Source: Nereocystis luetkeana
Taxonomy: Eukaryota; Sar; Phaeophyceae; Laminariales; Laminariaceae
Assembly (NCBI GenBank): GCA_031213475.1
Contig: JARUPZ010000009.1
Span: forward strand, 5,737,601 to 5,801,600
Reading direction: 5' to 3'
Length of the DNA: 64,000 nt
Made by a program: the position numbers and the translations under genes. The notes beneath the pieces are model-generated. The model searched no databases and was not told where the DNA came from. It worked only from the letters and a program-made list of their open reading frames with translations. This document shows, piece after piece, positions 5,641 through 55,290 of the stretch (the stretch's first letter is position 1; every line of letters begins with the position of its first letter).

Positions 5641-8600
5641 AAGAGAGAGATAGAGAGGTCGACATGCAATAACACAGTGTATACTCGTACGTACGCAATT
5701 TTGCCTACTGTATTCTATTAAAAATGATCTGACTCACAGTTATAACGTTATTACCAAGACACATGAAAATGAAAAACGTGGCTTGCAGGGTTTGCAGGGA
5801 TGCTTATCGACCTCTAACTTGCCAGAACAATAACTAAGAAAGGGGGATGGAAAAGGACGTGCCTTAAATTAGTATGTTGCGTTAGCCGTGAGGCATTTTT
5901 ATTTCACAGATAACAGCAGCAACGAAACGTGGCGAAGCGGCGATGGCAGCGGCAACATACACGCACGTGGTAAGGGAAGCACACAAGCACGTGACGGCAA
6001 GCGACGGCAGTAACGACGTACGTGACAGCAGCTGGCTTGTGGAACACGAGCCTGAGAGTCTCAGTGAGCGCACTTGGACACTCGCGCTCTCAAACCCCGC
6101 ATCATCGTCAGGCTTAGGCTTATTTTTCATTCATTCTTTATTTTGGCTGCTGTGTGGAAGAGGTGATGGGGGTCTGACAAGTGCGCTGCCAGCTCCCACC
6201 TGCGCCATTTGTTCAATACACGTCGAGCCAAGCACGCAAACTCAGGGTACCAGAGTGAGAATCAACGATGTGGACACGCGCCAGGGAGCAAGTCGCTTCC
6301 TGGTTGTGTCATGCATCATGAATTATACCAGGTACTCAGGCATTCCCCACCGAAATAAAATAATTAATTGAGTACAGACCCCCTAAATAATGAGCACCCG
6401 TTCAGAGTCATGGGTGTTATCGTACGCGCGGGACGCGCAGTACTGCTGCTGCTGTATCCGTGATACAGCCTACCCCGTAGTAGGTACCAGTGGGGTTGAG
6501 TTTCCACGTGGTCCATGGTCGCATGTGGTCAGCGGTGGGTCAGAGTCGCTTGCATGAAGAGCGCTATCAGCGCGTGTACCCCCCGTAGAGGCAAAGGAAA
6601 GGCCAGGTGCAACACACAAAAAAAAACCCAATAAAACGCTGCCACCCGCAGCTACCAAAAAAGTTACTCGAAATAAAAAATAAAATCGAAAGGAACAGGT
6701 TGGAGGCGCGAAGGCCGCCGCTCGTTCCGGCACGGGAAATGCAAACCCGTGCAGTAAGCGCGCAGCATGTACAGGGACTGAACACCATGAAACGGATGCT
6801 GGCTGCCTGATCTGAGGTCTTAAGTCATTGTCACAAGGCAACACATGTAGGGTTCTGCAATAGTTGGTAGGAGTGGCAGCTGGGGACCCCAGGTTACCAC
6901 TCAGAGGTGCATAACCCAAAAGGAGAACACAAAGACGAGACATGAATGACCAACCTCAGTGACAGAGCAGAGCTAGAGTCCGACCGAGTCGAGAGGTGCG
7001 CTCCTAGGTCTCCAGGAGAGTAGGGCGAGTTTGAGGTTCTTCTGTGAAGAGGCTCCAACTGGAGATGGCTAGATGGTAAGTGATTGCTTGTTCCGTGACC
7101 GTGGCGATGGTCGCGGGAACTGAGTGAGACGGAAGGGGGATGAAACCTTCCGTCTGGAACGGAGCTACAATATGAAAACGCCTCTATGTCATCATAACTC
7201 CTGAAACGGTCAACCGAACCGTAACAAAAACACAAAAAAGCAAAATCACCGGGATATGCAACGATATGGTTCCAAGAACGGTGCGATACCCCGAGAAGGC
7301 GCGTGTAGTCTTCCGGCGAACAGACAGGGGCAAGGGAAGGCAACCACCGAGAAATGCAGGACCGAGGGGTTCGAACAGGCCGATGGCGGTAGCCCGCAAA
7401 GAAGGGCAGTCGGTAAAAGCGGTAACATCAGCAAGACCGAGATATCGAACCTCGGAGAGACAAAACCTACCACTACTACTGTAAGATGAAGCCTTACACA
7501 AGAAGCTCTTCGCGGAGAAACAATACGTCCAAAACAAAATTCCAGGACCGCAGAAAATTGAACGTCCGTGTCTCCTTTTCCCAGCATATATCCCTCACGT
7601 CCGTGGTCGCCGCGCTCGTCGGCTTCTCGAGACCCCGAGACAGTCGCACGGGAGAACCCCCGTCAGAGGCCGGCTCGTGCGACCCACGAGGAAAGCGGTC
7701 GAAAAAGAAAGCACGAATGCAGGGAAGCGAAAGCGTCCGGAGTCGCACACAAATTTCAAGATAAATTCGGAAATTTAAGCTTTCTGTCACAGCGGCCATA
7801 AAGCAGGAGAAGAAAAATACAAATATTTATAAATGGTACAAGTAATATCGTCTCGTCCACCCTGGTAGCATTCAGGGGAGTCACCGGCCAGTAGTCAATC
7901 GCTAGGGAAATAAATAATGAAACACGCGCGATCGGTTTTCGCAGCTTGCAAAGTTGAGTATCAATCGATCTGTCGATCGGTGGAACTCACAGCTGACGTA
8001 CTCTTTTAGTTTCTTATAACAAATATATATATACCAGGTATATATATCTATATATATATACGCCGAAAAAATAAATAGGTAGTGCTCAGGGTAAAACTTA
8101 AAGGTTTCACAGATAAATGCTCGGGAACAAATCGTGGTCCGAGTAATGAGAGCATTGGAGTACTGGCGGCCAACATTTTGCGAGTACTGAGAAGGCCCAA
8201 ATACTAAGATAAGAGTAATCAGAATATTAGCGTTACCGAATCTCGAAAGCACAGGCAAGTAGCATGTACCCGCAGTATCGAAACACTATTCCTGGCAGTG
8301 CATATAGTAACCTCAAAATGCTGTCATTGCTCTAAGTACTCGAGTTGTCCGCGGCGAAAGTAATTTGCTTCAACTCTCACTCGTGGTACAATATGGGAGT
8401 GTTCTGTGCCGAACAAATGGGCCAGAGAAATTGTCGACACGGTGCACAGACGGTCAAGGTATAGGTCATACTCAAAGTATATGCTGGGCATATTGAAGGT
8501 ATTTCGGAATATACTGCGAGCACACGCAGAAGCAGTAATACGAACGCTACCAACGAGCGAAATACCGCTACTAATAATACAAGACTATATAGTACTCACA

Positions 8601-9440
8601 GTACAAGTGGTACAGAACCCCGAATTACTTGAAGCACAAGAGGCAGTACGACTGACTGCGTCTAAAGCAGTACTGCTGTAAAATGGCATGTGGTCGGATA
8701 CCTGTACGATAGCAAAGAAGGTACGCGTGCTACGACAAAGGAACGTACGTGTACCGACCCCCTTCAAGCTGGCTCTAGTGTCAATCGGCCAACACTGCTG
8801 TAGGGCACGCTGCAGTCACTAACCACTCCTGTCAGTATGTTTTGTACGAACGCTGCTGTATGTACACACGATACTGTACGAACGATTAGTTTTTGTTGTA
8901 CTCGAGTCGACGAACATATCGGGGATGATCGGTGAAGAGATAAAATTGCCAGTCACACGATGCGAAGGTACGCGTGCATAGGCCAGTGCTGCAGGCAACA
9001 ACAACGAACACTACCGTAGTACTGAGTGCACAGCGCGGATCTTCCACATACGCATAATACCCAGCCTGCCGCTGTTGCGGTTGTCGCACTGTGATGAGCA
9101 CAGCTGGAGCGGTGTGTGGCAAATGGAATGTTGGATCATGCACAACCATATGCGCAGTACAAGCATCGATACGCGCAAGGTTTTCCCACTCACTGCTGTT
9201 GCTGCTGGGCGGCAGGGTTGTGGATCTGGAGGAAGCTTGAGGTAGGCACGCTCTGTCGACTGCTGTGTTGCTATTGTTGTCTGGGCGGTAGTCCGTGCTG
9301 CGTGAAACAACACAAACAAATGTACAGGGATGTACGTCAGACTGGGTACATATGCATGAAAACAATCTGGCAGACGGTGGAATAAATATTTCGACACACA
9401 CAACAAATCACAGCAACCCTGCGCGCATAGGTGTGTCGCA
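5641..9440. other. long stretch without recognised genes
   Basis: Several open frames of 60-150 codons exist on both strands (for example 5943-6371 plus and 6894-7343 minus). None shows a family motif, a convincing splice structure or codon bias against its alternative frames. A (TA)-rich tract lies at 8022-8062. TACCAGGTA sites occur at 6326-6334 and 8032-8040, the second in the middle of the TA tract. An open segment at 8406-8681 (plus) is unrecognised. Confidence 0.5.
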
Positions 9441-9444
9441 CACG

Positions 9445-9575
9445 CACAGCATGTGGCCGGCAGCGTTCAAACGATGGGGTCTGTGCATGCGTGTGGGCGG
9501 CAGCGTTGGAACGATGAGATATTTTCATGCTTGTTGGCGGCAGCGTTGGATGAATCGGATCGGTGTATGTAGTCT
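9445..9575. repeat. three-unit ~45-bp tandem repeat
   Basis: GGCGGCAGCGTTGGAACGAT-like cores near 9460, 9500 and 9540, each preceded by GCATG(C/T)GTG-type sequence. No other function apparent. Confidence 0.65.
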
Positions 9576-12684: not shown

Positions 12685-13745
12685 GCATTATGAACGGTAT
12701 CGGCTATTCGCCATCTATCTATCTATCTGGGGCGCCGCCATATTCGGAAGCAAAATTCGGAATTTTTCCAGCCAAGGTCCCAATTGACTCGGAAATCACC
12801 GTTGGCAAAATATTGCCACCCACTCAGCACGTGCTACTAAGTGCGCTCTAGAAAGCGCGCAATGGCGCCCCATGCTTTCCAAACTGTAGCGTGGACCCCC
12901 CCCGAGGTATGCGCGCAGAAATGAACTCAATCGTCCACGAGCAGCGCTCGCACGAAGCGTGTAAAAAATGTGTTTTTTTCTGGCCTCCGAAGAAGCCACA
13001 GAGGGTCCTTATTCTGCAAGATGAACGCCGTTTGGACGGGATTTTGGGCTTAACTCCAAGTCCTAGTACACGCGACGGAGAACCACTTCTGCACGAAGTA
13101 GGGAGAGCACACGACAGCGCCACACGCAAAATAAAAAAAACACCTCTTTGCACACCGTGCTGCTGGCGTGAAGATGGGCTTGATCGGCCACGAGCAGCGC
13201 TCACACGACGCTTGTCAAAAAGTGTACCAGGTATATTTTTTCTAGCCACGCAAAAGTGTCGAAATTTTGTTTTTGAGCTCAACCCCAAGTGCTCGAACAC
13301 GCGACGGAGAAGAATTGCCGCACGAAGTAGGGAGAGCACGCGACAGCACCGCACGCATGCTTCAAAAATGCCTTTGTGCACACCCTGCTGTTGGCGTGAT
13401 GATGGGCTTGATCGGCCACGAGTAGCGCTCACACGACGCTTGTTGTCAAAAAGTGTATATTTTTCCTGGGCACGCAAAAAAAGTAAGTGTCAAAATTCTG
13501 TTTTTGAGCTCAACCCCAAGTCCTCGTACACCCGACGGAGAACAACTGCTGCTCGAAGTAGTGGGAATGCGCGACAGCACCGCACGCATACCAAAGGGTG
13601 GGATGTGTGCACACCGTGCCGTTGGCGCAAAGACGGGCTTGATCGGCCGCAAGCAGCGCTCACACTAAGCTTTTTTGAAAAAAGTACCACCGTGAGGCTC
13701 ACCGAGGACCGCAAGTCGACGATAGAGCGGATTTGCATTGTTTGA
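12685..13745. repeat. left outer arm: end domain plus ~235-bp tandem units
   Basis: Begins with an end domain shared in reverse with 27600-27826: ATTCGCCAT, a GGGGC block, a 'GCTCGGAAGC'-like block, then GCGCTCTAGAAAGCGCGC. Tandem units follow, marked by GAGCAGCGCTCACACGACGC near 12940, 13190, 13420 and 13655 (spacing about 230-250). Each unit also carries TTTTTGAGCTCAACCCCAAGT and CGACGGAGAA. Frames through it are repeat translations and not a gene. An (ATCT)n stretch is at 12711-12727. Confidence 0.8.
13225..13233. repeat. TACCAGGTA insertion inside one tandem unit
   Basis: This unit reads AAAAAGTGTACCAGGTATATTTTT. The next unit, near 13450, reads AAAAAGTGTATATTTTT. The difference is exactly seven bases flanked by TA, as expected of a TA-targeting transposon footprint. 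It is the cleanest empty/filled pair in the window. Confidence 0.75.
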
Positions 13746-15680: not shown

Positions 15681-15796
15681 GCTCCCTGGAGTGCTTGGAG
15701 CCCGAGAAGTGCAGGGGGGGGTTGCCCAGGCCGACCAAGATGCCGTTGTCCTTGATACCTGGTAGTTCCTTTGCAGTAGACACAATCCTTACGGAC
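15570..15796 (-). CDS. exon-like segment, product unknown
   Basis: On the minus strand a TTTGCAG acceptor (15797-15803) precedes a GC3-rich open segment. Near its middle it reads GILVGLGNPPLHFSGSKHS, then ELFIAHDEQVQDERHANFGE and WARVELEKSTAK. Third positions are nearly all G or C, unlike the other frames and the flanks. I do not recognise the family. Just inside the acceptor another frame reads VRKDCVYCKG. A TACCWGGTA site at 15756-15764 lies exactly where the two frames would change, so a 7-base insertion may have broken this exon. No convincing partner exons were found. Confidence 0.4.
15756..15764. repeat. TACCTGGTA site inside an exon-like segment
   Basis: Copy of the window-wide 9-mer. 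It falls in the exon-like segment 15570-15796. Removing seven bases here would place the upstream Cys-containing frame in phase with the GC3-rich downstream frame, as a footprint explanation predicts. There is no sister copy in the window to prove it. Confidence 0.45.
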
Positions 15797-16879: not shown

Positions 16880-17780
16880 TTGGCAAACCCTTACGTCTTT
16901 GTTCGCGGCAGAGACGGCGACGGCAGAGTCGGCAGCAGCATAAAACATGGAAATGTGTTAGTGTACTCAACGCCTGTCTGTTCTCGTATCAACAACAACA
17001 GCAGCAGCGGCGGTAGACAACTGTCTCGGAGTGGAAAGAAACGCAGGCTGCAAACAACAACGACAACTGTTCGGAAAGAAAAGCTGGTTATAGTAGTGTG
17101 CAAAACAAAAACAACGCCAGCAGCAGCGCATATATATACAAAATGTCAGTACGCGTACTATACCCCTGTCTCGGTGTGAGCTCGTATCAAGTAAAACAAA
17201 TCGGACATTTTTTTTTGGTTATACGTACTGCTGTAGTAGTGTGCAAGCCAAAACTCGAAATTACTGTAGTACCTGGTATGTATTTGTGTCTTGTATTTAG
17301 TACTGAAGGTCGACAACATGCGGTAACAGCAACAACCCAAACAACAGCTGCAGCAGCAGCGGCGGTAGACACCAACTCAAAGCTGCGTACAACAGCAACA
17401 ACGCGAACGACGCCTGCGTACACAGTAAATCAGCATCAGGGACGATAGGCGCGCGGGGTTACAGCAGCAGGAAAAGAAGCAGCAGCATAAACAACAACAG
17501 CAGCAGCGGCGGTAGACACTGTTGGGGAAACGAACGCAGGCTGTAAACGACAACGGCAGTAGCAGCGGCAGCAGCAGCACAAAAGCAAAAGACAGTAGGC
17601 GCAGTAGCGCATAAACAAATGACATTATTAGTACCAGGTGCGTTTTTTGTCTTGGATTTAGTGCTAAAGGTCGACAAACAACAACAACAACAACAACAGC
17701 AGCAAACGCGGCGGTATAAATAGGTAGCAAACAACAACACCACCAACAACAACAGCAACAACAGAGAAGCACAGAACACA
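16880..17780. repeat. CAG/CAA-rich ~170- and ~360-bp degenerate repeats
   Basis: Blocks of AACAACAACAGCAGCAGCGG followed by CGGTAGACA recur near 16989, 17335, 17490 and 17685. TTGTCTTG(G/T)ATTTAGT plus GGTCGACAA recur near 17285 and 17645. TACCTGGTA is at 17270-17278 and a near copy (TACCAGGTG) at 17632. Long Cys/Leu/Val-rich minus-strand frames are simple translations of the trinucleotides. Confidence 0.7.
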
Positions 17781-17786
17781 ACTCAC

Positions 17787-18671: not shown

Positions 18672-20607
18672 AATTTAGGATCCCAATACTAGTAATTGGT
18701 GGTAATGAGGCGCGACCTCGGTAATACCTGCAGTAGTCATATCTGCGATGCATCATGCTGGGCGGATACGGATTATTTTGTATTGTGCTGAACGAACGAA
18801 CACGAAGGAATATCTACCACGTACGGACTACTGTACTACTGTACGCCGTCGTGGGTGCATCTCAATAATTTTCGTAAATGTTCTTGGCCTCTCCTGGCTC
18901 TTGATATGAACAAGTACTGGATTTGGTCGTGTGTATCCTGATTTCCACCTCGAAATCCGGCATAATAATTTGAAAACGAAATCTGCACGGCTGTAAAAAA
19001 TATAATACATAACTTGTATCTCTCACAGGGATTGAGGAATCGGCACGGACACTGCTGTGGTGCTGGATGTCGATGGGTAGAAAGAGTCAAGAACACACAA
19101 CACTCGACATAGTTTGTCCAGCAGAGTGTTTTCTGGTTGAAATTCAGCACAAAAATCATCTCCATCTCACATGTTTTGTCCTACGGAAAGAGCTTCTTTT
19201 TCGCAGCATTTGTTACAGGTGTCACCACAACTGTACTTGGACTGATGTACGACATCTACAGCAGCAGTGCGCCTCCCGCACCATAACAGCAGCAGCAGCA
19301 GCAGCAGCAGCAGTAGCAGTAGGACACACGAGGCCAGGGTCAGCGTCGCCGTACGCTCGGCTTGTCGGTCTCACCCTTGCACCCTTTGTACGCGTACATA
19401 TACACATACGTACTGTAGTACGTACCCTGCACTCGGTATTTTTTTATGTTTCCTGCTTCCCACCCCGAGAGTCGGCATAATATTTTTGAGACGACAACAC
19501 GAACATGGCATGCCCAAAAGAGCTTCTCGTAGAAGGTGCCACAACCACTGCAGCTGTGCCACATCTACATCAGAGCTTCTCCAGCAGCAGCAAAACAGCA
19601 GCAGGGGTAGCAGTAGGATCCACGAGGCCAGGGTCAGCGTCGCAGTACGCTCGGCTTGTGCCCTTTGTACGCCGTACTCGATGTTGTGTGTATGGTTCCT
19701 GATTCCACCCTCATAATTTGAAGACGAAATATCTACAACCTCTGATATGACATACATGTATCCAACAGAGGTTCTCGTAGCAGGTGCCACCACTACTACT
19801 GACTGCTGTACAACTACAGCAGATCTCCTCCTGTTTCTCCGTCCCCTCGTCAGTAGGAGGGTAGGCCTGACAATATCACCTGCAGCACATGGCCCGAACG
19901 TAGGTGTGGACAGACAGGCGAAGTCTGCCTATATTATGACTACTCGTAGTTGGGTTTCGTTAGCTATTACGTAGGTAGAAAAAAGCTATAAAAACAAAGC
20001 CGTCTGCCTGCTGTGGACAGGCCCAGTCTGCCTGCTGTTGAGTGCTGCGGACAGGCTCAATCTTCCTGCTGTGGATAGGCCCAGTCTTCCTGCTGTGGAC
20101 AGGCCCAGTCTGCCTGCTGTGGACAAGCATAGTCTGCCTGCTGTGGGCAGGCACAGTGTGCATGCTGTGGACATGCACAGTCTGCCTGCTGTCTGCCAGC
20201 TGTTGGCACAGGCACAAAAACCGGTATGATTTTGTATTTTGAACACGGCCCAGCACGGACATGTGCCTACACACGTTGCCGCACCTAGCTCGACGAACTG
20301 TGAACGATTTTCCACCCCACTAGGACGAGGACGTGTCTTGCGTGTGTGTGCGTGCACAGAGCCCGCCGGGACTGGGTTTGGTGGCGTGTGCGTCGAGCGC
20401 GGTGGTGAAAGGTGGACCAAAAAATGTTGAATCCACACACCAACTGACACACACACACACACACATACAGAAAAAATCAAAACAGGCACCCTACCCTCAT
20501 AACCGAGCCGTTATGAAGAGGCTTTTTTTTTTCCTTGGTTAAAAACCAAAGAAAAAAAGGCTCGCTTCGCTCGCTCGCCTCATTATAATGATTAATGATC
20601 GTCCACC
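18672..20607. repeat. left inner arm of the palindrome
   Basis: Pairs with 20656-22693. It contains three degenerate internal units, each beginning with a CATAATATTTTGA-like block (about 18958, 19472 and 19709) and including AGAGCTTCT and AGGCCAGGGTCAGCGTCGC. A (CAG)n run lies at 19288-19312, a 24-bp minisatellite at 20009-20215 and an (AC)n run at 20446-20466. The inner end is GCTTCGCTCGCTCGCCTC then CATTATAATGATTAATGATC. No protein-coding gene recognised. Confidence 0.85.
20009..20215. repeat. 24-bp minisatellite, left arm version
   Basis: About eight units around CTGCCTGCTGTGGACAGGCC then CAGT. The mirror copy at 21075-21205 has only about five units, so the arms differ in repeat number. 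Confidence 0.8.
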
Positions 20608-20655
20608 GGCCGGGAACGACGCACCGGGTAATTTGGGGTGTGCTGCTTGCTGGTG
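20608..20655. other. palindrome centre (48-bp unique spacer)
   Basis: Lies between GATCGTCCACC (left) and GGTGGACGATC (right). The flanking 50 bp on each side pair almost perfectly and could form a cruciform with this loop. Confidence 0.8.
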
Positions 20656-21074
20656 GGTGGACGATCTTTAATCATTATAATGAGCGAGCGAGCGAAGCGA
20701 GAGTATTTTTTATTGGTTTTTAACCTACTTACTAGGAAAAAAAAAACTCTTCATAACGGCTCGGGTACGAGGTTAGGGTGCCTCGTTTTGAATGTGTGTG
20801 TGTGTCTGTGTGTGTGTTTGTGTTTGTGTGTGTGAGTTGGTGTGTGTAGTTCAACATTTTTTTGGTCCACCTTTCACCACCGCGCTCGACGCACACGTCA
20901 CAAAATCCAGTACCCGCGGGCTCTGTGCACGCACACACACGTAACACACTTTCTCATCCTGGTGGGGTGGGAAATCGTTCACAGTTCGTCGAGCTAGGTG
21001 CGGCAACGTGTGTAGGCACATGTCTGTGCTGGGATGTGTTCAAAACAAAAAATCAGAACGTTTTTTTTGTGCCG

Positions 21075-21205
21075 GTGCCAACAGCAGGCTGACTGGGCCT
21101 GTCCACAGCAGGAAGACTGGGCCTATCCACAGGAGGCAGATTGAGCCTGTCCGCAGCACTCCACAGCAGGCAGACTGGGCCTGTCCACAGCAGGCAGATG
21201 GTTTT
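21075..21205. repeat. 24-bp minisatellite, right arm version
   Basis: About five units reading GGGCCTGTCCACAGCAGGCA on the plus strand, the reverse of the left-arm array. Confidence 0.75.
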
Positions 21206-21460
21206 GTTTTTTTAGCTTTTTCTTCTACCTACGTAAAAACTAACGAAACCCAACTACGAGTAGTCATAGGCAGACTTCGCCTGTCTGTCCACACCTACGT
21301 TCGGGCCATGTGCTGCAGGTGATATTGTCAGGCCTACCCTCCTACTGACGAGGGGACGGTGAAACAGGAGAAGACCTGCTGTAGATGTTGTACAGCAGTC
21401 AGTAGTAGTGGTGGCACCTGCTACGAGAACCTCTGTTGGATACATGTATGTCATATCAGG

Positions 21461-21475
21461 TACCAGTACCAGGTA
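21461..21475. repeat. TACCAGTACCAGGTA insertion, right arm only
   Basis: The right arm reads CATATCAGGTACCAGTACCA followed by GGTACTAGATATTTCG. The left arm (19730-19750, reversed) goes from TCATATCAGAG almost directly to TAGATATTTCG. The extra bases are a TACC(A)GGTA-type motif, so the arm without them acts as an empty site. Confidence 0.6.
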
Positions 21476-22460
21476 CTAGATATTTCGTCTTCAAATTATG
21501 GGGTGGAATCAGGAACCACAGAAACAACATCGAGTACGGTGTACAAAGGGCTCAAGGGTTAAGCCGACACAAGCCGAGCGTACTGCGACGCTGACCCTGG
21601 CCTCGTGGATCCTACTACTACTGCTTCTTCTGCTGTTTTGCAGCTGGAGAAGCTCTGATGTAGATGTTGCACAGCAGGGGTAGTTGTGGCCCCTGCTACG
21701 AGAAACTCTTCTTGGGCATGCCATGTTCGTGTTGTCGTCTCGAAAATATAATGCCGACTTTCGAGGTGTAAAGCAGGAAACATATTGAAGAACGAGTGCA
21801 GGGTACGTACTACAGTACGTATGTGTATATGCACGCGTACAAAGGGTGCAAGGGTTAGACCGACAAGCCGAGCGTACGGGGACGCTAACCCTGGCCGCGT
21901 GTGTCCTACTGCTACTGCTGCTGCTGCTGCTGCTGCTGTTATGGTGCGGGAGGCGCACTGCTGCTGTAGATGTCGTACATCGGTCCAAGTATAGTTGTGG
22001 TGGCACCTGCTACGAAAAATAGGCTCTCTTTGTTGGACAAAACATGTGAGATGCAGATTCAATTTGTGCTGAATTCCAACCAGAAAACACTCTGCTGGAC
22101 AAAACATGTCGAGTGTTGTGTGTTCTTTACTCCTTCTACCCGTCGACATCCAGCACCATAGCAGTGTCCGTGCCGATTCCTCAATCCCTAGAGAGATGCA
22201 AGTTCTGTGGTCACAGCAGTGCAGATTTTGTTTTCAAATTATTATGCCGGATTTCGATGTGGAAACCAGGATACACACGACCAAATCAAGTACTTTTTCA
22301 TATATCAAGAGCCAGGAGAGGCCAAGAACATTTATTTATGAAAATTATTGAGATGCACCCACGACGGCGTACTGTTTTACTTGAGGTATTACTTCCACTC
22401 CAGAGGTATTGGAGCCTGTCCTGCGACCACGGACTGCATTGTACTGTGATTTAATGTGAT

Positions 22461-22506
<46 letters not shown>
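22461..22506. repeat. (CAA)n microsatellite
   Basis: About fifteen AAC/CAA units in the right arm only. The flanking ~100 bp is also extra relative to the left arm. Confidence 0.85.
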
Positions 22507-22693
22507 GTTGTACAAAGCAGTATTAATAGTACGCCCGTGGTAGATATTCCTTCGAGTTCGTTCGTCCAGCACAATAATATCTGGTGCAAAAGAAATCCGT
22601 ATGCGCCCATCATGATGCATCCCAGATATGACTACTGCAGGTATTACCGAGGTCGCGCCTCATTTCCACCAACTACTAGCAGTATTGGGATCC

Positions 22694-23444
22694 AAAATAA
22701 GTACAAAAGATTTGGACCATAGGATGATGGTTGTGGTGGTACGAGTATTAGAATCACCCGGTAGCTGCAGAGTATATACCCTCTCAACACAAAAACACGT
22801 AATCATCTGCAACCCCGAAGGGGTGGTATTTACTGTGCAAGTTAGGTCCCTCTTTGTGTTGCAAATATAGCTCGTGGTGTCAAGAAAAACCCGCTTTTCC
22901 AAAGAACTAGGGTGCAGCATGGCGCGGGCAGTGTCATCTGGGCCGTCTCGGCCATGTCCCTCTCGGAGGGAAGATGCTGCGTGGGTCCTGGTACAAATAT
23001 GATGACCGTGTCGGGCGTACGTACGCCTAAAAGAAGATTCTCTTTAGGGTCTTGTACCTTCTTCTCTTGAATTTGCCCATTTTTGGTTTGGGCGGAAGAC
23101 GAAGAACAAACCACAACAACAAGGTGCATCGGGCAGGCAGGCGCTGCGTCTTTGTGCGGGAGAAAAGGGATATGAACACATGCATGCCCCCTTCGCAATG
23201 AGTCGCGGGCCTACTGCACCCTCCCAGCAGGGTACTCGACGCGGGACGCTTTTTTTTGGTGTTCGTGCCACATCCCAAGCTCACTATTCACAACAAGATA
23301 TTCATATTATTTCAACACATCCTACACAAAGAGCAGTACGTTATTCTGATGAAAATGATCAATACGCTCTCATATTACGTATTTATACTACGAACGTATG
23401 TATATGCTCGAATGCAAAGGTGGTTTGTTATTAAATACCAGGTA
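22694..23444. repeat. right arm, middle segment
   Basis: Reverse-complement partner of 13800-14549. The longest minus-strand frame (22842-23198) aligns with the left-arm plus frame 13916-14359 over a block containing KENLLLGVRTP. Other frames are about equally conserved, so this does not prove coding. It ends at TACCAGGTA (23436-23444), which serves as the left TA flank of the mariner-like element. Confidence 0.75.
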
Positions 23445-24647: not shown

Positions 24648-24654
24648 TACCCCC

Positions 24655-25956
24655 TTATTCGCCGTCCAAGGGCAGATTCAACAAGAACCTACGATGGGAC
24701 TTAAAAGGGGTCGCAGCAAGGGATTTCGTCCAAATATCCGCGTGCTGCTCTTCCGAAGCTACGAACTGAATGTGGATCTTCTTAGCACGAAGTAGCTCTC
24801 TGACAAAATGAAAACGCACGTCAATATGCTTACTCCGCGCAGAACTAAGAGGGTTCTCAGCCAACGCTATGGCCCTCTGGTTATCCTCGAAAACCCGAAC
24901 ACATGATCCGCTTAGCTCTGGACAAAAAGACGACAACACCGCGCCCGTAGACAAAGCTTCCTTCACCCCTTCATCCAGGGCGACATACTCTGCTTCTGCT
25001 GTCGACAACGTAGCACACCTCTGCGTGCTACTTGCCCAACTGACGGCCGCACCCCCTAGGGTAATTCCAGTCCCCGATACAGAGCCCCTATCGTTCGACT
25101 TACCAGCATAATCAGCATCACTATACGCTGTCAAATCCAATCCCGAACCCCGCACAAAAGTCAATCCCATAAACCTGGTCCCATGGAGGTAAGCCATAAT
25201 CTTGAAAACTGTCTTCCAGTGCCTCTCCGTTGGGTTGTGGGAGTGGCGCGCCACAACACGCACAGCGTTCGAGATGTCCGGCCTCGTCATTGTCGACAGC
25301 CACATCAAGCTGACCACAGCCTCCCTGTACGGACAGTCTCCTCCAATTTCGCCCTCCTCTCTTGGACCTAGTTCCACACCGGGGGTCGCGGGGATGTCAG
25401 AGGATGAGTCAACACCAAAACGATTCAGCATGCTCTCTATAAACGCCTTCTGCTTAATCTCCAATGTCCCCAACTCCCAGTCGCGTTTGAAAGCACAACC
25501 AGTATACCAAGTCAGTTCGCCGAGGTTATTTGTGGGGAATTTCGTAACTAGCGCGGCATGGAAATCTCTACATGTCTCGTCCGATCCTGCGATCACGATG
25601 TCATCTACATGGACGGCCATGATCAGTTCTACCTTGCCGTCCACAACCATGCGAAAAACACACGGATCAGACCTACACTGCTCCATACCGTACTCTACCA
25701 CGGCTTCCACCAATATTCCGGCCCACTGCCGTCCGCTCTGCTTTAGACCATACAGTGATCTGTTCAAGCGGACGATCCTTCCTGACATGTCACCAAACCC
25801 ACCAGGTAGTTTCAAGTATATCTCGGCGTCGAGTTTCGCGCGAACAAAAGCTTGCGCGACGTCTAGATGAAAAATCTTCAGACCATATTCGTTGGCAACA
25901 GTCGCCAGGATTTTAACTGACGCTGACGAAGGAGTTGGTGCAAACGTTTGAGTCAG
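24655..25956 (-). CDS. Ty1/copia reverse transcriptase-RNase H, 5'-truncated, intact frame
   Basis: About 433 codons remain open with no stop. The beginning, LTQTFAPTPSSASVKILA, corresponds to the start of the copia RT domain. Next come FHLDVAQAFVRAKLDAEIYL (first catalytic Asp), LNRSLYGLKQSGRQW, and MAVHVDDIVIAG (the Asp pair). RNase H follows with LTAYSDADYAGK, LSTAEAEYVALDEG, VFEDNQRAIALAE and SKHIDVRFHFVRE, ending ADIWTKSL. RT copies element RNA and RNase H degrades it. Gag, protease and integrase are missing: at 25956 the frame passes straight into a tRNA-like inverted repeat. Its intactness suggests recent insertion compared with the decayed gypsy element. There is no true start codon because the 5' part is lost. 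Confidence 0.92.
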   Translation of the reverse strand: MTQTFAPTPSSASVKILATVANEYGLKIFHLDVAQAFVRAKLDAEIYLKLPGGFGDMSGRIVRLNRSLYGLKQSGRQWAGILVEAVVEYGMEQCRSDPCVFRMVVDGKVELIMAVHVDDIVIAGSDETCRDFHAALVTKFPTNNLGELTWYTGCAFKRDWELGTLEIKQKAFIESMLNRFGVDSSSDIPATPGVELGPREEGEIGGDCPYREAVVSLMWLSTMTRPDISNAVRVVARHSHNPTERHWKTVFKIMAYLHGTRFMGLTFVRGSGLDLTAYSDADYAGKSNDRGSVSGTGITLGGAAVSWASSTQRCATLSTAEAEYVALDEGVKEALSTGAVLSSFCPELSGSCVRVFEDNQRAIALAENPLSSARSKHIDVRFHFVRELLRAKKIHIQFVASEEQHADIWTKSLAATPFKSHRRFLLNLPLDGE

Positions 25957-26310
25957 CGCTGACTGAGTAGCTCAGTGGTCTATCCTTTATAATCGAACAA
26001 AATATGCTCGGGGTTCGAGTCCGGCCTGACGTCGTATTTCCGCTTTTTCTGCTGTGGGCAGAAAAAGGGAAATCAGGTGGAGAGAACCACGATGAAAGAA
26101 CACTCGACCAGAGAGTCGGAAGTGGAGTGAACCAGTTGAGTAAAAGAACTCACGACTATGGAGGGGGACAATATTATGAAGGAAAAACTAGGCGCTGATT
26201 ATGGGCTTGATCAACCTCGGAGGATGTTATCGGCGGGAGGCCGTATCGAGCCCAAAGGTACTTCTTTTGTTCGATTATAAAGGATAGACCACTGAGCTAC
26301 TCAGTCAGCG
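25957..26310. mobile_element. tRNA-like element with 42-bp perfect inverted ends
   Basis: Ends 25957-25998 and 26269-26310 are perfect reverse complements beginning CGCTGACTGAGTAGCTCAGT. The left half carries an A box (TAGCTCAGTGGT, 25968-25979) and a B box (GGTTCGAGTCC, 26012-26022) at tRNA spacing, so it has a Pol III promoter. The acceptor and T stems do not pair well, so this is a tRNA-derived repeat and not a tRNA gene. The right inverted copy has only the A-box half. The middle has no gene. Read as a SINE it is odd in ending with an inverted copy of its own 5' end. Confidence 0.7.
25968..26022 (+). promoter_or_regulatory. Pol III internal promoter (A and B boxes)
   Basis: TAGCTCAGTGGT fits the A-box consensus and GGTTCGAGTCC fits the B box exactly, about 32 bases apart. 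No obvious T-run terminator lies immediately downstream. Confidence 0.7.
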
Positions 26311-26395: not shown

Positions 26396-27600
26396 ACACC
26401 CTACCCTTCCGTATGCGTGCGGTGGTGTCGCGCATTCCCGCTATCTCGAGCTGCAGTTTTTCTCCGTCGCGGGTGCGAGGACTTGGGGTTGAACTCAAAA
26501 ACCTGTCCAAACAACGTTCATCTTGCCGAGTTTGGACCTTGTTGCGTGCCCAGAAAAAACATGCACTTTTTGACAAGCTTCGTGTGAGCGCTGCTCGCGG
26601 CCGATGACGCCCGTCTTTGCGCCAGCGGCACGGTGGGCTCACATGCTGTACTTTAGTATGCGTGCTGTGCTGTCGCATGCTCTCCCTACTACTTGCAGCA
26701 GTTCTTCTCCGCCCCGTGTCCGAGTAGTTGGAGTTGAGCTCAAATCCGTCGAAACGGCCTTCATCTCGCAGTATGAATCTACCGTGTTTTTCAATTTTCC
26801 CCAATTTTCGGTGGCTACAAGCCAAAATATACACTACTTTACAGCCTTCGTGTAGGCGCGGCACACGGCCGATCAAGCCCCTCTTTGCGCCACCATCACA
26901 TTGCGCACACATCCTACACTTTGGTAAGTGTGCCGCACTGTCGCTTGCTCTCCCTACTTCGTGTAACAGTCGTTTTCCGTCGCGTGTACGAGGACTTGGA
27001 GTTGAGCTCGAAAACCCGTCCAAACAACATTCATTTTGCAGGATTTCGACACTTTTGCGTGCCCAAGAAAAATATACACTTTTTGACTATTAATAGCTTG
27101 GTGTGAGCGCTACTCGCTGCCGATCAAGCCCGTCTTTGCGCCAACGGCACGGTGTGCACACACCCTACCCTTTTTGGTATGCGTGCGGTGTTGTCGCGCA
27201 TTCTCACTACTTGGAGCAGCAGTTCTGGTCCGTCGCGTGTACGAGGACGTGGGGGTTGAACTCAAAAACCCGTCCAAACTACGTCCATCTTGCAGAATTT
27301 CGACACTTTTGCGTGCCCAGAAAAAAGATGCACTTTTCGACATGCTTCGTGTGAGCGCTGCTCGCGGCCTATCAAGCCCGTCTTCGCGCCAGTAGCCCGG
27401 TATGCGCACAGGCTATACTTTGGTATGTGTGCGTCGCTGTCGCGTCTTCTCACTGCCTGCTGCAGTTCTTTTCCGTCCCGTGTCCGAGGAGTTCCATTTG
27501 AGCTCAAATCCGTCGAACCGAGATTCAGCTAGGAGAATTGTGACCCTCTGAGCTATTTTCGGAGGCCAGAAAAAAGACACATTTTTTAGACGCTTCGTGC
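26396..27600. repeat. right outer arm: ~245-260-bp tandem units
   Basis: Units marked by GTGTGAGCGCTGCTCGCGGCC near 26589, 26852, 27108, 27352 and 27600 (spacing 244-263), in opposite orientation to 12900-13745. With the unit at 24017, the right arm has about six unit marks against four on the left. Repetitive frames such as 26340-27023 (minus) are translations of the unit. Confidence 0.8.
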
Positions 27601-34309: not shown

Positions 34310-35420
34310 TCGTTTGCCCGCGAGTAATTTGTCGTGGTTCCTGTGGCGGGGCCCGCAGGAGGGCGATGTGGACTGTACGGTGCAAGCATTGGATCCGGCC
34401 GGGCTCCGTGGCCCATGCTCTACACGGTCAAAGTCACGTGACTCAGCAAGCCACTCAGGGGATGGTGTCACACTTACTTCCGAAAAGAAATCCAGGGGAT
34501 TGAACACTTACCGGGATCTTCGTATTTTTAGCTACAAATATCTTGTTTTTCTCGCTTCATGCTGCAACTAAAACAACAGCACACAGGGCTGCTCTAGTTC
34601 GTGCTGCTCGAGGTCGTGCTGCTCGCGCTCATCATGCTCGAGCAGTAGGCAGAAGTAAATCAGCAGCAACAGCAGCAGTGCTGCTTGAGTCGAGTATTGC
34701 TCGAGTGGTGCTGAGTGTTGCTGCTGCTGCTGCTGAGTGCTCGTGTGCTGGTGACTGCTTGACCACCATATATGAGAACACGGTGTATCCACCACGTGGA
34801 TTTGTTTGATGTATCTCGGTGCGATTCATCATTTTTTCGGATTTTTGTACAAGATATTGCGTTGCCTACAATAATACTGTCGAGCTCATCAAGCTCGAGG
34901 AGTACGCAGCAGAAAAACAACAGCATACAGCTCGAGTCGAGTGTTGTTCGAGTGCCGCCGGGTGCTGCTGCTGCTGCTGCTGCTGTTGAGTACTCGTGTG
35001 CCCGTGACTGCTTGGCCACGCCGTGCTCGGTTTTGTCTCGTGCACGTTGCGCTTCAGCAATCGAGTGATCGTGGCCCCGTGTCTGTTTTTTTTGCGGTGC
35101 AATAAGCCATGCTTGGAATGTTAACGTACTCATGCTCATGCGTGCGAGTGCTGCTCGAGCAGTACGTAGCTGTACAAGAACAGCCACAACAAGCGTAAGA
35201 GTGCTGCTCGAGTGCTGCTGAGTGTTGCTGCCGCTGCTGATAGTGCTCGTGTGCTCGTGACTGCTTGGCCACAAGACATGAGAAAACGCTGTATCCACCA
35301 CCTACTATACCTGGTAGAGTGTTTTTAGTATCTCGGTGCGATTCATCTTTCATTTATCAGAACTTCGTACGCCGTAGAATAGTGGTGCGTGTAATGCTGT
35401 AGTAGCCGAGTTTTCACCAC
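34310..35420. repeat. direct repeat with CTG-rich ~240-bp units, copy 1
   Basis: Aligns with 36950-38115. It starts with GGGGCCCGCAGG...TCCGGCCGGGCTCCGTGGCC, then CTG-rich units near 34600-34800, 34890-35060 and 35120-35330. Each unit ends in a TGTATCCACCAC and GTATCTCGGTGCGATTCATC block. TACCTGGTA (35308-35316) sits between these blocks in the third unit but not in the first. Confidence 0.75.
35308..35316. repeat. TACCTGGTA site within a CTG-repeat unit
   Basis: This unit and the one at 37612-37620 carry TACCTGGTA between CCACCAC and GTATCTCGG. The unit at 34790-34830 lacks it, with fewer bases in between. The pair of filled units and one shorter unit fits a footprint inherited by duplication. 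Confidence 0.5.
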
Positions 35421-36650: not shown

Positions 36651-36949
36651 GATACGAGCACCGTCAATTTCGTTCTTAGTGCTACGCTTTCCTTTGAGCG
36701 TTAAAGCAGTCCATCTCTCCTACCAGGTATACGCCAGGACATGCGAGAGCATCGAAGACGAGACTACTACTCTTCGCATTTTGCAGCAGACCACAGTAGC
36801 CCATAACTCAGTTTACTCCGAGTTAATTTTTACTCAATCAAAAATATGCAAGTGTTTTACATACGTCTCCCTTTTCAACTTGCGACACCCCCCGGATTTC
36901 ATGCCACCCACATCCCGAAGGGGAAACTTGTATTACTTTGTACCAAATG

Positions 36950-38115
36950 GCCGTGGGTCTTTTTTCGTGCTTCCTGCTGCGGGGCCCGCAGGGGGGCGGC
37001 GTGGATAGTACGATGCAAGCGTTGGCTCCGGCCGGGCTCCGTGGCCCATTCTCTAGGTGGTGAAAGTCGCGTGACTCAGCAAGAAAATCAGGGGATGTGT
37101 TCCCATTGTCGAAAAGCCATCCAGAGGCTAAAACACAACCCCGGGTCTTCGTATTTTCAGCTGCCAAGTGTTTGTTTTCTCGCCTTTTGCTGCAACTGCA
37201 GCAACATCAAACAACAGTGCTGCTCGAGTTAGGCAACAGCAACAACAGGCGGATGAGTGCTGCTGAAGTCGAGTGTTGCTCCAGTGCCGCTGCGTGCTGC
37301 TGCTGACGGCCTGGCCTCGCCGTACTCGTCTTTGATTCGAACTCGTTGCGCTTGAGCAGTCGAATGATCGTGGTCCCGGGTCATTTGGTTTTCAGGTGCG
37401 ATAGACTTGAAAACCTTCTCATGCTCGTGCGCTCGAGTGCTCCTCGAGCAGTACGCAACAGTACGCAACAGAAACAACAGGCGTACGAGTGCTGCTCGAA
37501 TCGAGGGTTGCTCGAGTGCTGGTGAGGGTTGCTGCTGCTGCTGCTGAGTGCTCGTGTGCCCGTGACGGGTTGGCCACAAGACATGACAACACGCTGTATC
37601 CACCACGTACATACCTGGTAGTTTGTTTTTAGTATCTCGGTGCGATTCATCATATATCGGATCGTTGTATTAATACCACGTATTGCGTTGCGTGAAACAA
37701 TGTCGAGCTCTACGCAAGCAGTACGCAGAAGCAAAACAAGAGCAATAACAGACGTAGGAGTGCTACTCGAGTCGCGTTTTGCTGCAGTGCTGCTGGGTGC
37801 TGTTGCCGCTGCTGCTGCTGAGTGCTCGTGTGCCCGTGACTGCTTGGCCACGCCGTGGTCGTGTTTGTCTCGTGCTCGTTGCGCTTGTGCAATCGAGTGA
37901 TCGTGGTCACGTGTCATTTTTTTGGCGATGCGTTAGGCTGGAAACTTGCTCATGTTCGTGTGCTCGAGTCCTGCTCGAGCAGTACGTAGCATTACAAGAA
38001 CAGCAACAACAGACGTACGATTGCTGCTCGAATCGAGTCTTGCTCGAGTGCTGCTGAATGTTGCTGCTGCTGCTGCTGCTGAGTGCTCGTGTGCTCTGCT
38101 TGGCCACAAGCCATA
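36950..38115. repeat. direct repeat with CTG-rich ~240-bp units, copy 2
   Basis: Second copy of 34310-35420, starting GCGGGGCCCGCAGGGGGGCG. Units lie near 37200-37310, 37400-37620, 37690-37880 and 37930-38110. Minus-strand frames rich in His, Ser and Gln are repeat translations. Confidence 0.75.
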
Positions 38116-45110: not shown

Positions 45111-45114
45111 CTTG

Positions 45115-45123
45115 TACCAGGTA
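45115..45123. repeat. TACCAGGTA site in the decayed pol region
   Basis: Copy of the 9-mer directly after the protease motif block, at a point where the frame is lost (FLYQV then stop). No sister copy is available to show an empty site. Confidence 0.4.
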
Positions 45124-47170: not shown

Positions 47171-47183
47171 ACACACGCCATGA

Positions 47184-48240: not shown

Positions 48241-48289
48241 TCCTGCGCTGACAGCCTGTCCTAACGTACCCAGCGGGCGCGGCGCCCGT

Positions 48290-49100: not shown

Positions 49101-49187
49101 CAGGGACGCTCGTTTTTCCCCGTTCGCAAACAACACGCCCTGAACATCGCCCGGGTTGAGCGCCGCAATTCTGCGCTGTCCGACCGG

Positions 49188-50516: not shown

Positions 50517-50741
50517 TTAAGAAGTTGAGGAACAAGGCTGTAAAGGATCAGCCCAACCTCGCTGCTCGATCTGTGCCACTTTTCGCGAGCGCACATGGCC
50601 GACAATTGTCGTTCCGGAGGGAAGTTCAATTTTCAACTCATGGCCGAACACAGAAGGCGCGATAGCTGTCTGGGCTCTCGTGGCCGACTTCGCAAAGTGA
50701 CCGTACCGAAATAGCCGACAGACGGATCTTAGTGACGGCAA
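50517..50741 (-). pseudogene. unknown repeated module, minus-strand copy
   Basis: Partner of 33880-34060: KSATRAQTAIAPSVFGHELK, then VGHVRSRKVAQ. Lies just outside the gypsy element. Function unknown. Confidence 0.35.
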
Positions 50742-50758
50742 TCGCTGAGAACTTTGTC

Positions 50759-50905
50759 ACCTTCAATGTAGCGTGACGAGTTGATGGTCGATTTCACACT
50801 CCAAGCCACTGGCTCCTCCCTACAGGTTTGGCACCTTGTTCAATGTAGCGTGACGAGTTAATGGTCGATTTGACACTCCAAGCCAACGGCTCCTACCTGC
50901 ATGTC
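50759..50905. repeat. ~74-bp tandem duplication
   Basis: CAATGTAGCGTGACGAGTT, GGTCGATTT and CACTCCAAGCCA recur at about 50765 and 50839 with few differences. Confidence 0.85.
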
Positions 50906-53900
50906 GGGACGACGACAGTGGAACCACCGCACAGATGGGTTACTCGAGCGCGGCTCCTGTAGTGACGGTTCCGTGCCGGGTGTGGAAACCTATTTTGAGT
51001 CCCAACGGAGGCAGACATTCGAACATATCCAACTCTCGATGAATTACAGTGAAGTGTCGAAGTTTCAGCACAAAACTAAATGTAATGCGTGTCGTTAAGA
51101 TCGAATCGTACTCTGAAATACCTGACCCGAAGGTGGAAGTATACTCAATTCCTGGGACCGGGTCACACATCTCAGCAATAACATGATACTTTTGTGACGC
51201 GAAATTCCAACATCGCCCGGTGTACTTCCTAAGTTCTGTAAAGACTTATTATGCGTACACAGATATAATGTTGATCGACTAGGCTCTCTTAAAACCTGAA
51301 CAATTGAAGTTACCTCCAGGGTACCTCCCGGCGCACACTTGGTGCGTAGGGTTTCTGGCGTATTTGGTTCAAGGCAACACGCAATGTTGATACCCCTCCC
51401 CCCGCCTCCGGAAGTTTCCCTGAACCCTTTCAGGGGTGGCAGAAATTGGCGCTTGGAATGACGAGTTTTAAAACAGACAACACAAACCCTTGTAATTTTT
51501 CGTGCATTTTTACAATACAATTCTCTCGCTACTTGCCGGGTTTGTTTATTGCGCAGGCCTTTCTTTTAACGCGTTTCAGACTCGGAATCTCCCTTCAAAT
51601 GTCTGAACTGGATGAAACGCAATCAATCGTGACCGCATAACTAGCATCTCACCTCCCCCTTGATTTCGTCGCTCATGAGGTTGTGTCCGACCAACCTTCA
51701 CTCGCGATGGATCGCCCGAAACGAAACAAACATACATGCCGACGATGTTTTGATTGCCGGGAAGGAATCCGGGTCGTCACAGGGTTTCTCTATTTAGGTC
51801 TACTCCATCTTTTAGCGCTCATACAAAAAATAACATCGCCGCATTTGTGTCTTTTGTTTCCAATCTCGAAACGTCATACGGATGTGTTCGATCGGGAAGA
51901 TTATAATTCTTGTACGTATTTAACAGATCGGAAAAGGCTTTCGATTTGAATCGTTGTTACAACCCCGTTGGTTTTGATTATTTCGACGGAAACTCCGCAT
52001 ACGACGAAGAACTCTGCAGAATCAGCGAATAAGCGAGGGTACGTTCGTTTGAAAATAACACGGGTAGTTTTGGTGGAATCGAAAACGATGCCCGCTCGTT
52101 AACAATCATCCAATTACCGTCGCTATCGAGCCTTACCTATAAATGCCGTAATTCAGCGTATGCCACCTTCGGCTACAACTAATATTTGTCGGCCAATCAA
52201 CGGTTTGGCGTGGTTTTCGCAGAAGTGTGTGCACTTGGACAGTATTGTCAGCTCAGTTGTCGTGAGTGTTATTGTCCGACCGATATTTTTTTTTATGTGG
52301 TGCTGTTCCCCTCCAGTGTGATTGGAGCCCGCAATTATTCAATTTCGAAGTAATATGTAACCACAACCGGACTGCGATACTAAAACGGTTAACAGAGAAA
52401 CACATACGTATACATTACGCGTCGACGGCACATATGCAGGCGCGTTAGGTAGATTGCAAAGTTGAGTATAAACTGCAGTATTATTTTATCCACGACGTGC
52501 GTCGACGTCGACTTGCGCAGCAGCGATAGTAGTATACCTGGTACGCTTTTACCGCCGATGGTGCCTGGACAGCCATCAAAGCAGCATGCGCCTCTCGCGC
52601 AGCATTCCCCGCATTTGGCCGGGCTTCCGGAGACCTGATCTCATTGCACATCCCGAACTCCTAAGTAGTCTGCATCACACCTTTGACTTGCCGCTATGCC
52701 TCTTCTTCACTGTGCTATCACGTGTAGGTTGCGATTGAGTTTCCGGCGTCATGTCATGGGTTCCAGTGAAAAAGCGAGAACAAAACACCCCACCCACAGA
52801 GATCGGAATTGAAAACCGGTGCAACCGTTATGATCTCATGATGAAATAAGGACATGGGAAAAGAGTGATCAGTATTTTCATGTTTCGACTTTGTTTTTCA
52901 AACTACACGCGCCTCTTATCACGTAGTGCTCAGGGTAAGACACCCAAGAGGTAGTTACATAGGTTCTCATCCCTGTCTCTGGAAGTTTCTACATCGGAAA
53001 TCAAGTGTACTTATTGCGGCTGTCATCCATATGGAATTGCGCTTCACGAGCGGTTCGTAGTAGGATGGAGTCTACCTTTCATGAGACCGGCCGGACACCA
53101 CACGGCGCTTCGCGCTTGGAGCAAGCAATATCTGCCTTTTTCGGTGAAAACCCGACATGTTCTGTCCTGAAAATGTAGAGGTGCGAGGGTATATGGTCAT
53201 ACGACTATAGCCGTGCATGAGATCGAGTACGTCTCTTACGTCTCTCCTATCGAGTGCACTCCCGCACGCCCCCTCGTCTAGCGAAAACAAAATATGTGAC
53301 GATTCAATTGTTTTTTTTGCGGCCTCTCTAGGTCGAATTGTTTCTTCTCACTTGAAACTAAATTATACCAGGTAGTAAGTTTTCCGCTGGTCGCGGATGC
53401 ACGATTGCTGCTGGCATGGCACCTTTAGGACTGCAGTCCCAGTTTGCGGACAAACCAGTTAAATTGTAATACTTGGTCCTTAAACGAATGCACGTAACAG
53501 AGGCTACGCTGCAACGATCACCACTCCTACAAATATACCAATGGTCCGCACCTATCGATCATGTGTATGGTACATACATATATGATGTATACACGTCATT
53601 TGTACTGTTCTTTTGAATCCGTTAAAGCATATCAGGTATCAGGTACTATAGTTCAAGCGTAACCTTGTAGGCCCCAGGTACATATGTATACAGAAGATAT
53701 TGGCAGGCGGGGGATTCCATGCCTCGAGTGAGGGTCCGCCGGCCCGAAATCTGCAGATCTGTTCGCGGCAAAACGTTAAGATACGTGTATAATTATTTCG
53801 CTTGGCGTTCGCCAGTGTGAAGTGTTGTCCTAGAAATGACTGAGAACCAGAAAAACAAGAACATCTGGCAGGTCAAATCACATGTGATGTACATGAAGAC

Positions 53901-53955
53901 TACCACAACCAACATCCCTCCATCTCGTCCTCTAAACCACGACCACTCCCTACCC
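50906..53955. other. no gene recognised
   Basis: Frames up to ~140 codons on either strand (51095-51520 minus, 51446-51640 plus) lack motifs. TACCTGGTA at 52535-52543 and TACCAGGTA at 53366-53374. TATCAGGTATCAGGTA near 53629 is a degenerate relative. Confidence 0.5.
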
Positions 53956-55290
53956 GAAGCACCCGCTGAGAAGAAACTACCAACACCCCGCTGCCCATCA
54001 AAACGGATACCTGGTAGGTTTCAACAGCTGTGCGCATGTTTCGACGGTCAGAAGGTGGTGCGGTCTTGCTGCTTTATATTGCCATCGGTAGTACCTGGGA
54101 GAGAGTACCTGCAGTCTTCCTCTCTTGTGGTTCTTCTACCCCTCCCCCCACGAACTACTTCTTCTGTTACTTCCAGCCCCCCTGCCTCTGCTACCTCCAG
54201 CCGCAAGGGTCCAGACTCCCCCCCAAGCACCCCCAAAAGAGCACCTGCCAGAACCTTGATGCCCTCAAAAATCACTGGTTTGTCACTGCTACGCGCAAGT
54301 TTAAACGCAGAAAGGTCGGTGCGGTGTCGCTGCTCGACAGTGAACTCGGCAGTACTTTGGAGATCATTCGTGCGGCTTGCTCTCACTGTAGTAGATCTTG
54401 TTCCTTCTTCCACCCCCCCCCCCTCGATTATACTCCAACGACCACTTCTTGTACTTCGCGCATCCCTCACCCTGCCACTTCCAACCGCAAGGGCTCAGTT
54501 CATCTTTAAATATACTCCCGATGAACATTTACGAAAACCCACTGCCCGTCACAATGGCTGGTTGAAAACTGCTACGCACATTCTTAAACGCGCTGAATGT
54601 CGTGGGTGGTTGCTGGTTTACAATGCTATCGGTTGTACGTATGAATAATTTCTGCTGTCTCGACATACTCGTTAGGTCTTCCACCCTCTCGACCCTCAAT
54701 CCCACACGTGCAACCACTGCCTTTCCTCCCGGTACCCCTGACCCTGACACCGCCGACCGCAAGAGGCCGTTCTTGTTCCCAAGCCATCTGGGAAACCAAT
54801 TACCCAAAACTCGCTGCCAATCAAAAAGGTTGGTTTCCCACTGTTCCGCACATGTTTTAACGCGCAGAAGGTCGTGCGGTGTCTCTGGTTTACACAGCTA
54901 TCGGTAGTACTGAAGAGAACCCCATTTCCGTGTCGTTCTCTTTGCAGCTCTTTCACCTTGTTTACCAACCTATTCAGCCACGTAAAATCCTTGCCTTTAT
55001 TTCCCGTACCCCTGACCCTGCGACCTCCGACCTCAAGGGCTCAATCCACCTTCCCAAGCACTCCCGAAGAAGCATCTAACGAAAACCCGCTGTCTTTTGA
55101 TACGGCTGGTTTTTCACTGTTACGTGCACCGTTCTGCGCACGTTGGGTTGCGTGGTGTTGCTGGTCTAAACTGCATTACATCGTGTTTAGGAGAGAGTTC
55201 CTGCCGTGTCGCTATCTTTGTAACCATACCTCCTCCTCGATTACCTCCGTCCTCCAGGAAGCATTTTTTTCTAGGCCACGAAACCCATTG
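53956..55290. repeat. ~275-bp satellite array B
   Basis: About five units of the same satellite as 1-1025. The GGTTT-ACTGCTACGCGCA block occurs near 54018, 54280, 54560, 54830 and 55108. Units also share CTGACCCTGCGACCTCCGAC-like and AAGGGCTCAGT blocks. The 270-codon frame (53836-54648) crosses several units and is probably repeat-derived. Confidence 0.8.
54008..54016. repeat. TACCTGGTA insertion in one satellite unit
   Basis: This unit reads AAACGGATACCTGGTAGGTT where sister units read AAATGGCTGGTTT or ATACGGCTGGTTT. The extra bases are the 9-mer, so the sister units act as empty sites. Confidence 0.6.

Follow-up and report, generated by a model that had tools for sequence, protein, structure and literature searches.

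The nonamer TACCWGGTA (W, A or T), which recurs throughout the genome of the brown alga Nereocystis luetkeana, is very probably the excision footprint of a cut-and-paste DNA transposon that targets TA and has the ends 5'-CCAGG...CCTGG-3'. We examined it from a window of 64,000 nucleotides (assembly GCA_031213475.1, contig JARUPZ010000009.1; G000:C9:5737601-5801600). A footprint had been proposed in an initial annotation of the window, and four lines of evidence now support it: clean insertions of 7 bp that duplicate TA, present at 4 of the 14 sites with an alignable relative, empty and filled alleles in a family of miniature inverted-repeat transposable elements (MITEs), a symmetric target preference, and polar length variants of the scar.

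The TACCWGGTA signal itself is real and very strong. The genome-wide count that the initial annotation had suggested as a check gives 182,395 sites in the 465-Mb genome, against 1,744 for the reversed-pattern control, which strongly contradicts the lack of enrichment that it had named as grounds for abandoning the idea. The load comes to about one footprint per 2.5 kb, the 7-bp scars adding up to roughly 1.3 Mb. With C or G (S) as the central base, the pattern occurs 10,882 times (control, 1,899). In the window, all 14 coordinates first given are exact (8 TACCAGGTA and 6 TACCTGGTA), and the over-representation had even been understated; dinucleotide-preserving shuffles of the window give a mean of 0.36 sites and a maximum of 2, with none of 100 reaching at least 14. 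The density in the window, 219 per Mb, lies below the genome mean of 392 per Mb. TACCWGGTA is also the top-ranking non-simple 9-mer, with 98 sites where an order-3 Markov model predicts 2.6, in a 279-kb sample that comprises the 64-kb window, twenty 10-kb stretches and five short loci (L005, L006 and L008 were excluded because they overlap other loci). The five short loci were chosen by motif search and are hence biased, contributing 7 of the 98 sites; the remainder are the 14 sites of the window and 77 in the 200 kb sampled at fixed positions. The exact word TACCAGGTA is absent from the literature library searched, and among the matches listed, no mention of TACCWGGTA was found in the literature on footprints and TA targets, on iterated palindromes, or on brown algal or stramenopile transposons and genomes.

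The putative footprints of the window, and the two tandem repeats that supply empty copies for one of them, are as follows (no strand is assigned to any row):

6326..6334: TACCAGGTA footprint, exact match
8032..8040: TACCAGGTA footprint within a TA repeat, exact match
13042..13686: host tandem repeat, period 231, source of an empty sister copy
13225..13233: TACCAGGTA footprint; 5/5 sister repeat copies lack 7 bp; target score 6/6
15756..15764: TACCTGGTA footprint, exact match
17270..17278: TACCTGGTA footprint, exact match
21461..21475: TACCAGTACCAGGTA, a CCAG length variant followed by a full CCAGG footprint; 2/2 sisters 11 nt shorter
23436..23444: TACCAGGTA footprint, then CCTGG; the two may be a decayed tandem
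26866..27490: related tandem repeat, period 254, source of more empty sister copies
35308..35316: TACCTGGTA footprint, shared with the paralogue at 37612
36721..36729: TACCAGGTA footprint; a relative in L009 lacks the motif, with an unclean gap
37612..37620: TACCTGGTA footprint, shared with the paralogue at 35308
45115..45123: TACCAGGTA footprint, exact match
52535..52543: TACCTGGTA footprint, exact match
53366..53374: TACCAGGTA footprint, exact match
54008..54016: TACCTGGTA footprint; its sole sister copy is strongly diverged

How does the motif arise at a given site? About 200 bp on either side of each sample site was aligned against the 279-kb sample, and only alignments spanning the site are reported. 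A relative aligned across the site exists for 14 of the 98 sites. At four of these (window 13225, L009:5266, L012:3808 and L026:7056), at least one relative is a clean empty allele, reading flank-TA-flank with exactly 7 nt fewer. All five sister copies of window 13225 are shorter by 7 nt, with TA in three and CA in two. At L026:7056, the motif is missing from 11 of the 12 related copies, six of which are exactly flank-TA-flank, and the remaining relative, in L014, carries the CCTGG form with a mutated end. Some sites arose through a 7-bp insertion with TA duplication, and the strongest evidence for this lies outside the window, at L026:7056 and in the MITE family described below.

These insertion alleles bear on the alternative that TACCWGGTA is a functional, highly iterated palindrome, selected as a binding or modification site. 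Its extreme abundance and its palindromy would suit such a role, and CCWGG is the classical Dcm/EcoRII site. The cyanobacterial HIP1 is a short palindrome of this kind, present at high genome-wide frequency according to the excerpt of PMC4390886 consulted. Unlike HIP1, the motif here arises, where testable, by a 7-bp insertion with target duplication, and the clean 7-bp insertion alleles do not fit a palindrome made otherwise. Moreover, footprints occur at differing TAs among the MITE copies, and words with one mismatch are in excess in the sample, as if sites decay (140 observed against 59 expected, an excess of 81, beside 98 exact sites with an excess of about 95). We consider selection for a functional palindrome very unlikely. 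The centre is C or G in 20 of the 81 excess words, and from the rest, the mean divergence per site can be put crudely at about 8%.

The repeat at L026 is a MITE of about 110 bp with terminal repeats TTACGGGGGACCATAG and copies at L029-L048 and L062-L069 (L005, L006, L008 and L058 and L059, the last two both identical to L057, were omitted from the search). At one TA of this MITE, with fixed flanks, 112 copies are empty and 27 contain an insert. Twenty of the 27 inserts are exact footprints, 11 CCAGG and 9 CCTGG in the MITE orientation; six of these 20 (two A and four T) lie on small contigs and may duplicate other loci, and excluding them leaves 9 A and 5 T. The other seven are CCCTGG (two), CCAGGG, CGGAG, the 3-nt CCA, a CCAG+CCTGG tandem and one shifted case. 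Further TAs of the same MITE are footprinted in some copies (L034, L041, L063 and L067). Several of the MITE footprints arose separately, though some were inherited.

The same site bears on the introner alternative of the initial annotation, namely an insertion that uses CCAG|GTA as a splice junction. By its sequence, CCAG|GTA does resemble such a junction; nothing further was found in favour of the idea. The insert is only 7 bp long, the A form and the T form each occur often, and MITEs and other repeats harbour the scar. Inserts span 3-13 nt at the MITE site that was tested (the search pattern permitted 3-30), and the nine half-sites read there are footprints or decayed footprints with no longer inserts; nothing of intron size was seen at this site. 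An introner origin is scarcely credible.

The TAs that received the motif are not ordinary ones. Both flanks of the 98 sites show A or T at -7, A at -6, T at -2 and A or G at -1, whereas among 15,084 background TAs there is no more than a weak R at -1. A logo of this kind could be a by-product of tandem footprints; we rejected this explanation for W-7 and A-6, because the signal persists after removal of the 31 of 196 half-flanks that are near-tandem, that is, resemble a second footprint. In the remaining 165 half-flanks, the frequencies are 0.81 for W-7, 0.45 for A-6, 0.48 for T-2 and 0.81 for R-1, with p = 2e-13 (W-7), 1e-7 (A-6) and 6e-9 (R-1) when the halves are treated as independent. The target logo is also present at CCGG (12 sites), CCAG (27) and CCAGGG (8) and absent at CCSGG (12), CWG (100) and CC, all in small numbers. 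Overlapping footprint pairs 7 bp apart number five in the 98-site sample and eight among the first 100 listed genomic hits; the outer TA of a footprint itself fits the target preference, which can explain these pairs.

Next, we consider how the flanks are joined. After excision of a 5'-CCAGG...CCTGG-3' element, the scar in the rejoined flanks should consist of the start of CCAGG and the end of CCTGG. Genome-wide, TACCAGGGTA occurs 11,422 times (control, 409), and its A/T swap TACCTGGGTA 1,578 times (control, 362). The same grammar would make TACCATGGTA clearly commoner than TACCTAGGTA, and the latter is found 175 times (control, 182). In the sample, the words permitted by the CCAGG rule alone are mostly in excess (CCA 44 against 34.9 expected, CCAG 27 against 12.3, CCAGGG 8 against 0.7, CCATGG 2 against 0.4, CCAGGGG 2 against 0.2 and CCACTGG 1 against 0.2, with none of the longer forms), while the mirror set, built on ends CCTGG, is not (AGG 15 against 17.6, CAGG 13 against 8.9, one CCCCAGG, and no CCCAGG, CCTAGG or CCTCAGG). 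CCGG, which both word sets permit, occurs 12 times against 4 expected. With slightly wider flanks, the half-sites at the MITE TA are eight CCAGGG, no CCTGGG and one CCTGGA (n=9), although some CCAGGG copies may share ancestry.

These polar length variants indicate that two defined end sequences were joined, unlike untemplated addition. They bear on a further explanation without any resident transposon, in which TA is cut by a TA-specific nuclease or a domesticated transposase and CCWGG is added during repair, or in which an abortive one-ended insertion leaves the motif behind. No element has been found, and the TA duplication and target preference require merely a TA-targeting enzyme, as this explanation would have it; the great surplus of CCAGGG over CCTGGG, with CCTAGG at background, speaks for the joining of two defined ends instead. 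We regard an element-free origin as unlikely.

For the excision of a transposon with CCAGG ends, we propose the following course. The element would insert at TA and duplicate it, and its excision would leave about 5 nt of each element end on the flanks. The two CCAGG overhangs would then anneal via CC/GG around an A·A mismatch that is resolved to A or T; we infer this resolution because the centre is W and both alleles occur at one oriented site. Loss of the unpaired base would produce CCGG, and slipped joins would produce CCAG/CTGG, CCAGGG/CCCTGG and CCAGGGG. The duplicated TAs could be reused as targets, giving the overlapping footprints 7 bp apart. As judged from its sequence, the scar would be compatible with either a 3' or a 5' overhang. 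About 182,000 footprints would have built up over an extended period in which intact copies dwindled or disappeared, and the divergence of about 8% suggests such a prolonged build-up and not a recent burst. It is conceivable, at somewhat less than an even chance, that an undescribed family of CCAGG-ended transposons with an excision staggered by about 5 nt swept the lineage and left some 180,000 footprints with few or no resident copies; in a variant of this history, copies may survive solely in a different life stage, sex or strain.

Several observations weigh against the excision reading. The alignment of paralogous repeats, proposed in the initial annotation, gave a clean 7-bp gain at the four sites above, but ten of the 14 alignable sites have no clean empty allele, because gaps are larger or split, relatives are diverged, or the motif is shared (35308/37612). 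The annotation had further stated that sister copies lack the motif at 13225, 21467 and 54008, and only the first of these comparisons is clean. At 21467, both sisters are shorter by 11 nt, not 7, and a short variant at 21461 lies beside the full footprint, a complex case; the single sister of 54008 (71% identity across 120 columns) lacks 7 nt, spread over split gaps, has no TA there and is too diverged to judge. In addition, TACCTGGGTA stands at about four times its control, which a strict grammar does not predict; this excess could stem from mutation of other forms or from other joins. The length of the scar also departs from the 2-4 bp stated for Tc1/mariner footprints in the relevant passage of PMC7913693: the main scar has 5 nt, and the 4-nt CCAG and CCGG are minor. 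Two further points, the distribution of the filled MITE copies and the missing element, deserve closer attention.

On a tree of 44 MITE copies (15 empty and 29 filled), filled against empty requires 7 changes, compared with 12.7 for shuffled labels, and none of 500 shuffles is as low; the number is rough, as the two classes of copy were not sampled alike. The tree uses 44 of 49 hits, the others being in reverse orientation or without the expected core. Part of the filled copies were thus inherited with the MITE, because the states cluster on the tree. Such clustering is what would be seen if TACCWGGTA were a passenger of amplified repeats, with a few ancestral motifs copied along with transposable elements. 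The paralogues at 35308 and 37612 likewise share their site (two further relatives lack the motif, with unclean gaps), and at G000:C1:1305185-1308362 seven TACCAGGGTA matches stand at an exact 528-bp spacing, which suggests that a satellite took up one of the footprint variants. However, just 14 of the 98 sites have an alignable relative within the sample, and the A, T and length variants at one MITE site require 17 changes when all states are placed on the tree. That passenger copying accounts for the motif is therefore highly improbable.

An intact element with CCWGG ends was not found by any of our searches. The 113 half-sites in the 279 kb (TACCWGG without a following TA) share no extension by eye, except for repeats that are similar beyond the supposed end, and a search for terminal inverted repeats returned a single inverted pair (window 14244/22993), the similarity of which likewise extends into the outer flank. 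One pair of half-sites occurs in the sample, 15 nt apart in L007, which by estimate is about chance level. The Tc1-type profile DDE_3 (PF13358) has no genome matches, its control responding in 3 of 14, and PF01359 has none either, its control responding nowhere. PF03184 (DDE_1) has 28 genome matches, and the 13 examined (eight loci, five regions) have no CCAGG-ended repeats, although the flanks may stop short of the ends. Intact copies may be rare or extinct, may use another type of transposase, or may be confined to another strain or stage. Around one DDE_1 gene, 6.4-6.5 kb is 100% identical on three contigs (G000:C2:7917700-7924200, C809 and C1378), reflecting either recent duplication or duplicate assembly; the gene contains three in-frame TAG codons, and two more contigs have an equal score.

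How does the proposed excision scar compare with known systems? A duplicated TA (flank-TA-flank against flank-TACCWGGTA-flank) and a palindromic target preference (W-7, A-6, T-2 and R-1 on both sides) are both characteristic of Tc1/mariner elements, although the preference is not identical to the palindromic target ATATATAT reported for them in the part of PMC7913693 consulted. Sleeping Beauty and Frog Prince leave the footprint C(A/T)GTA (PMC3878927, in the passage concerned), which for Sleeping Beauty derives from 3-nt 3'-overhangs (PMC7827188, likewise in part). The present scar resembles theirs in the TA duplication, in a palindromic insert with an A/T centre derived from end overhangs, and in the palindromic target preference; it differs in its 5-nt rather than 3-nt footprint, its target logo, its approximately 182,000 copies and the element not having been found. 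Stowaway, a plant Tc1/mariner MITE, leaves TA-bounded remnants with 1-4 bp of its terminal repeats and several variants per site in Triticeae, as an excerpt of PMC1925063 describes. Both features recur here, but those remnants were described for individual gene introns, and some lineages still retain the elements, whereas the present genome is saturated with a uniform scar of 5 nt. Among brown algae, Ectocarpus has 17 Mariner-Tc1 families with about 12,000 copies (PMC12477816), and the terms 'footprint' and 'excision' are absent from the main text of that article. Two other superfamilies were rejected: piggyBac, which targets TTAA and excises without a footprint, since the target here is TA and a scar remains; and PIF/Harbinger, with its 3-bp TNA/ANT duplication, since the duplication here is the 2-bp TA, mostly with R before and Y after. 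The scar may be a variant of a known footprint type that works like Tc1/mariner excision, family membership not being established.

Most work on excision footprints deals with only a few loci. A single, uniform and readable scar that saturates a genome makes target preference, repair outcome and transposon history measurable from sequence alone, and the repair outcomes that can be read include mismatch choice, microhomology and length errors. If the excision reading is true, cut-and-paste elements can reshape a genome mainly via what stays behind. For brown algal phylogeny, the presence or absence of the 7 bp also provides a dense marker.

Other short words are over-represented in the 279-kb sample. 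TATTAATA occurs 56 times against 5.7 expected, about a tenfold excess, and is seen as a 6-bp insertion (GCTATTAATAGC against GCTAGC) at L012:3784 and L012:5074. It may be another short scar, but we rejected it as a sister footprint of TACCWGGTA, because it lacks the CCWGG target logo. TACWGTA (100 against 42 expected) was rejected as a sister footprint on the same ground. TACGAGTA occurs 35 times on both strands against 11.9 expected, and the catalogue of small indels between repeats is too small for classifying other scars. The window further contains a large inverted repeat (18722-22646) with two arms of about 1.5 kb and a spacer of roughly 0.7 kb, and contig-internal, telomere-like ACCCTAACCCAAACCCTA repeats (30404-30454). 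Pointing to a probable brown algal source other than Ectocarpus, a Copia reverse transcriptase (24655-25968, minus strand) has relatives in Ectocarpus (best identity 55%) and Ascophyllum, and others up to 91%, among the best 120 of 1,011 matches.

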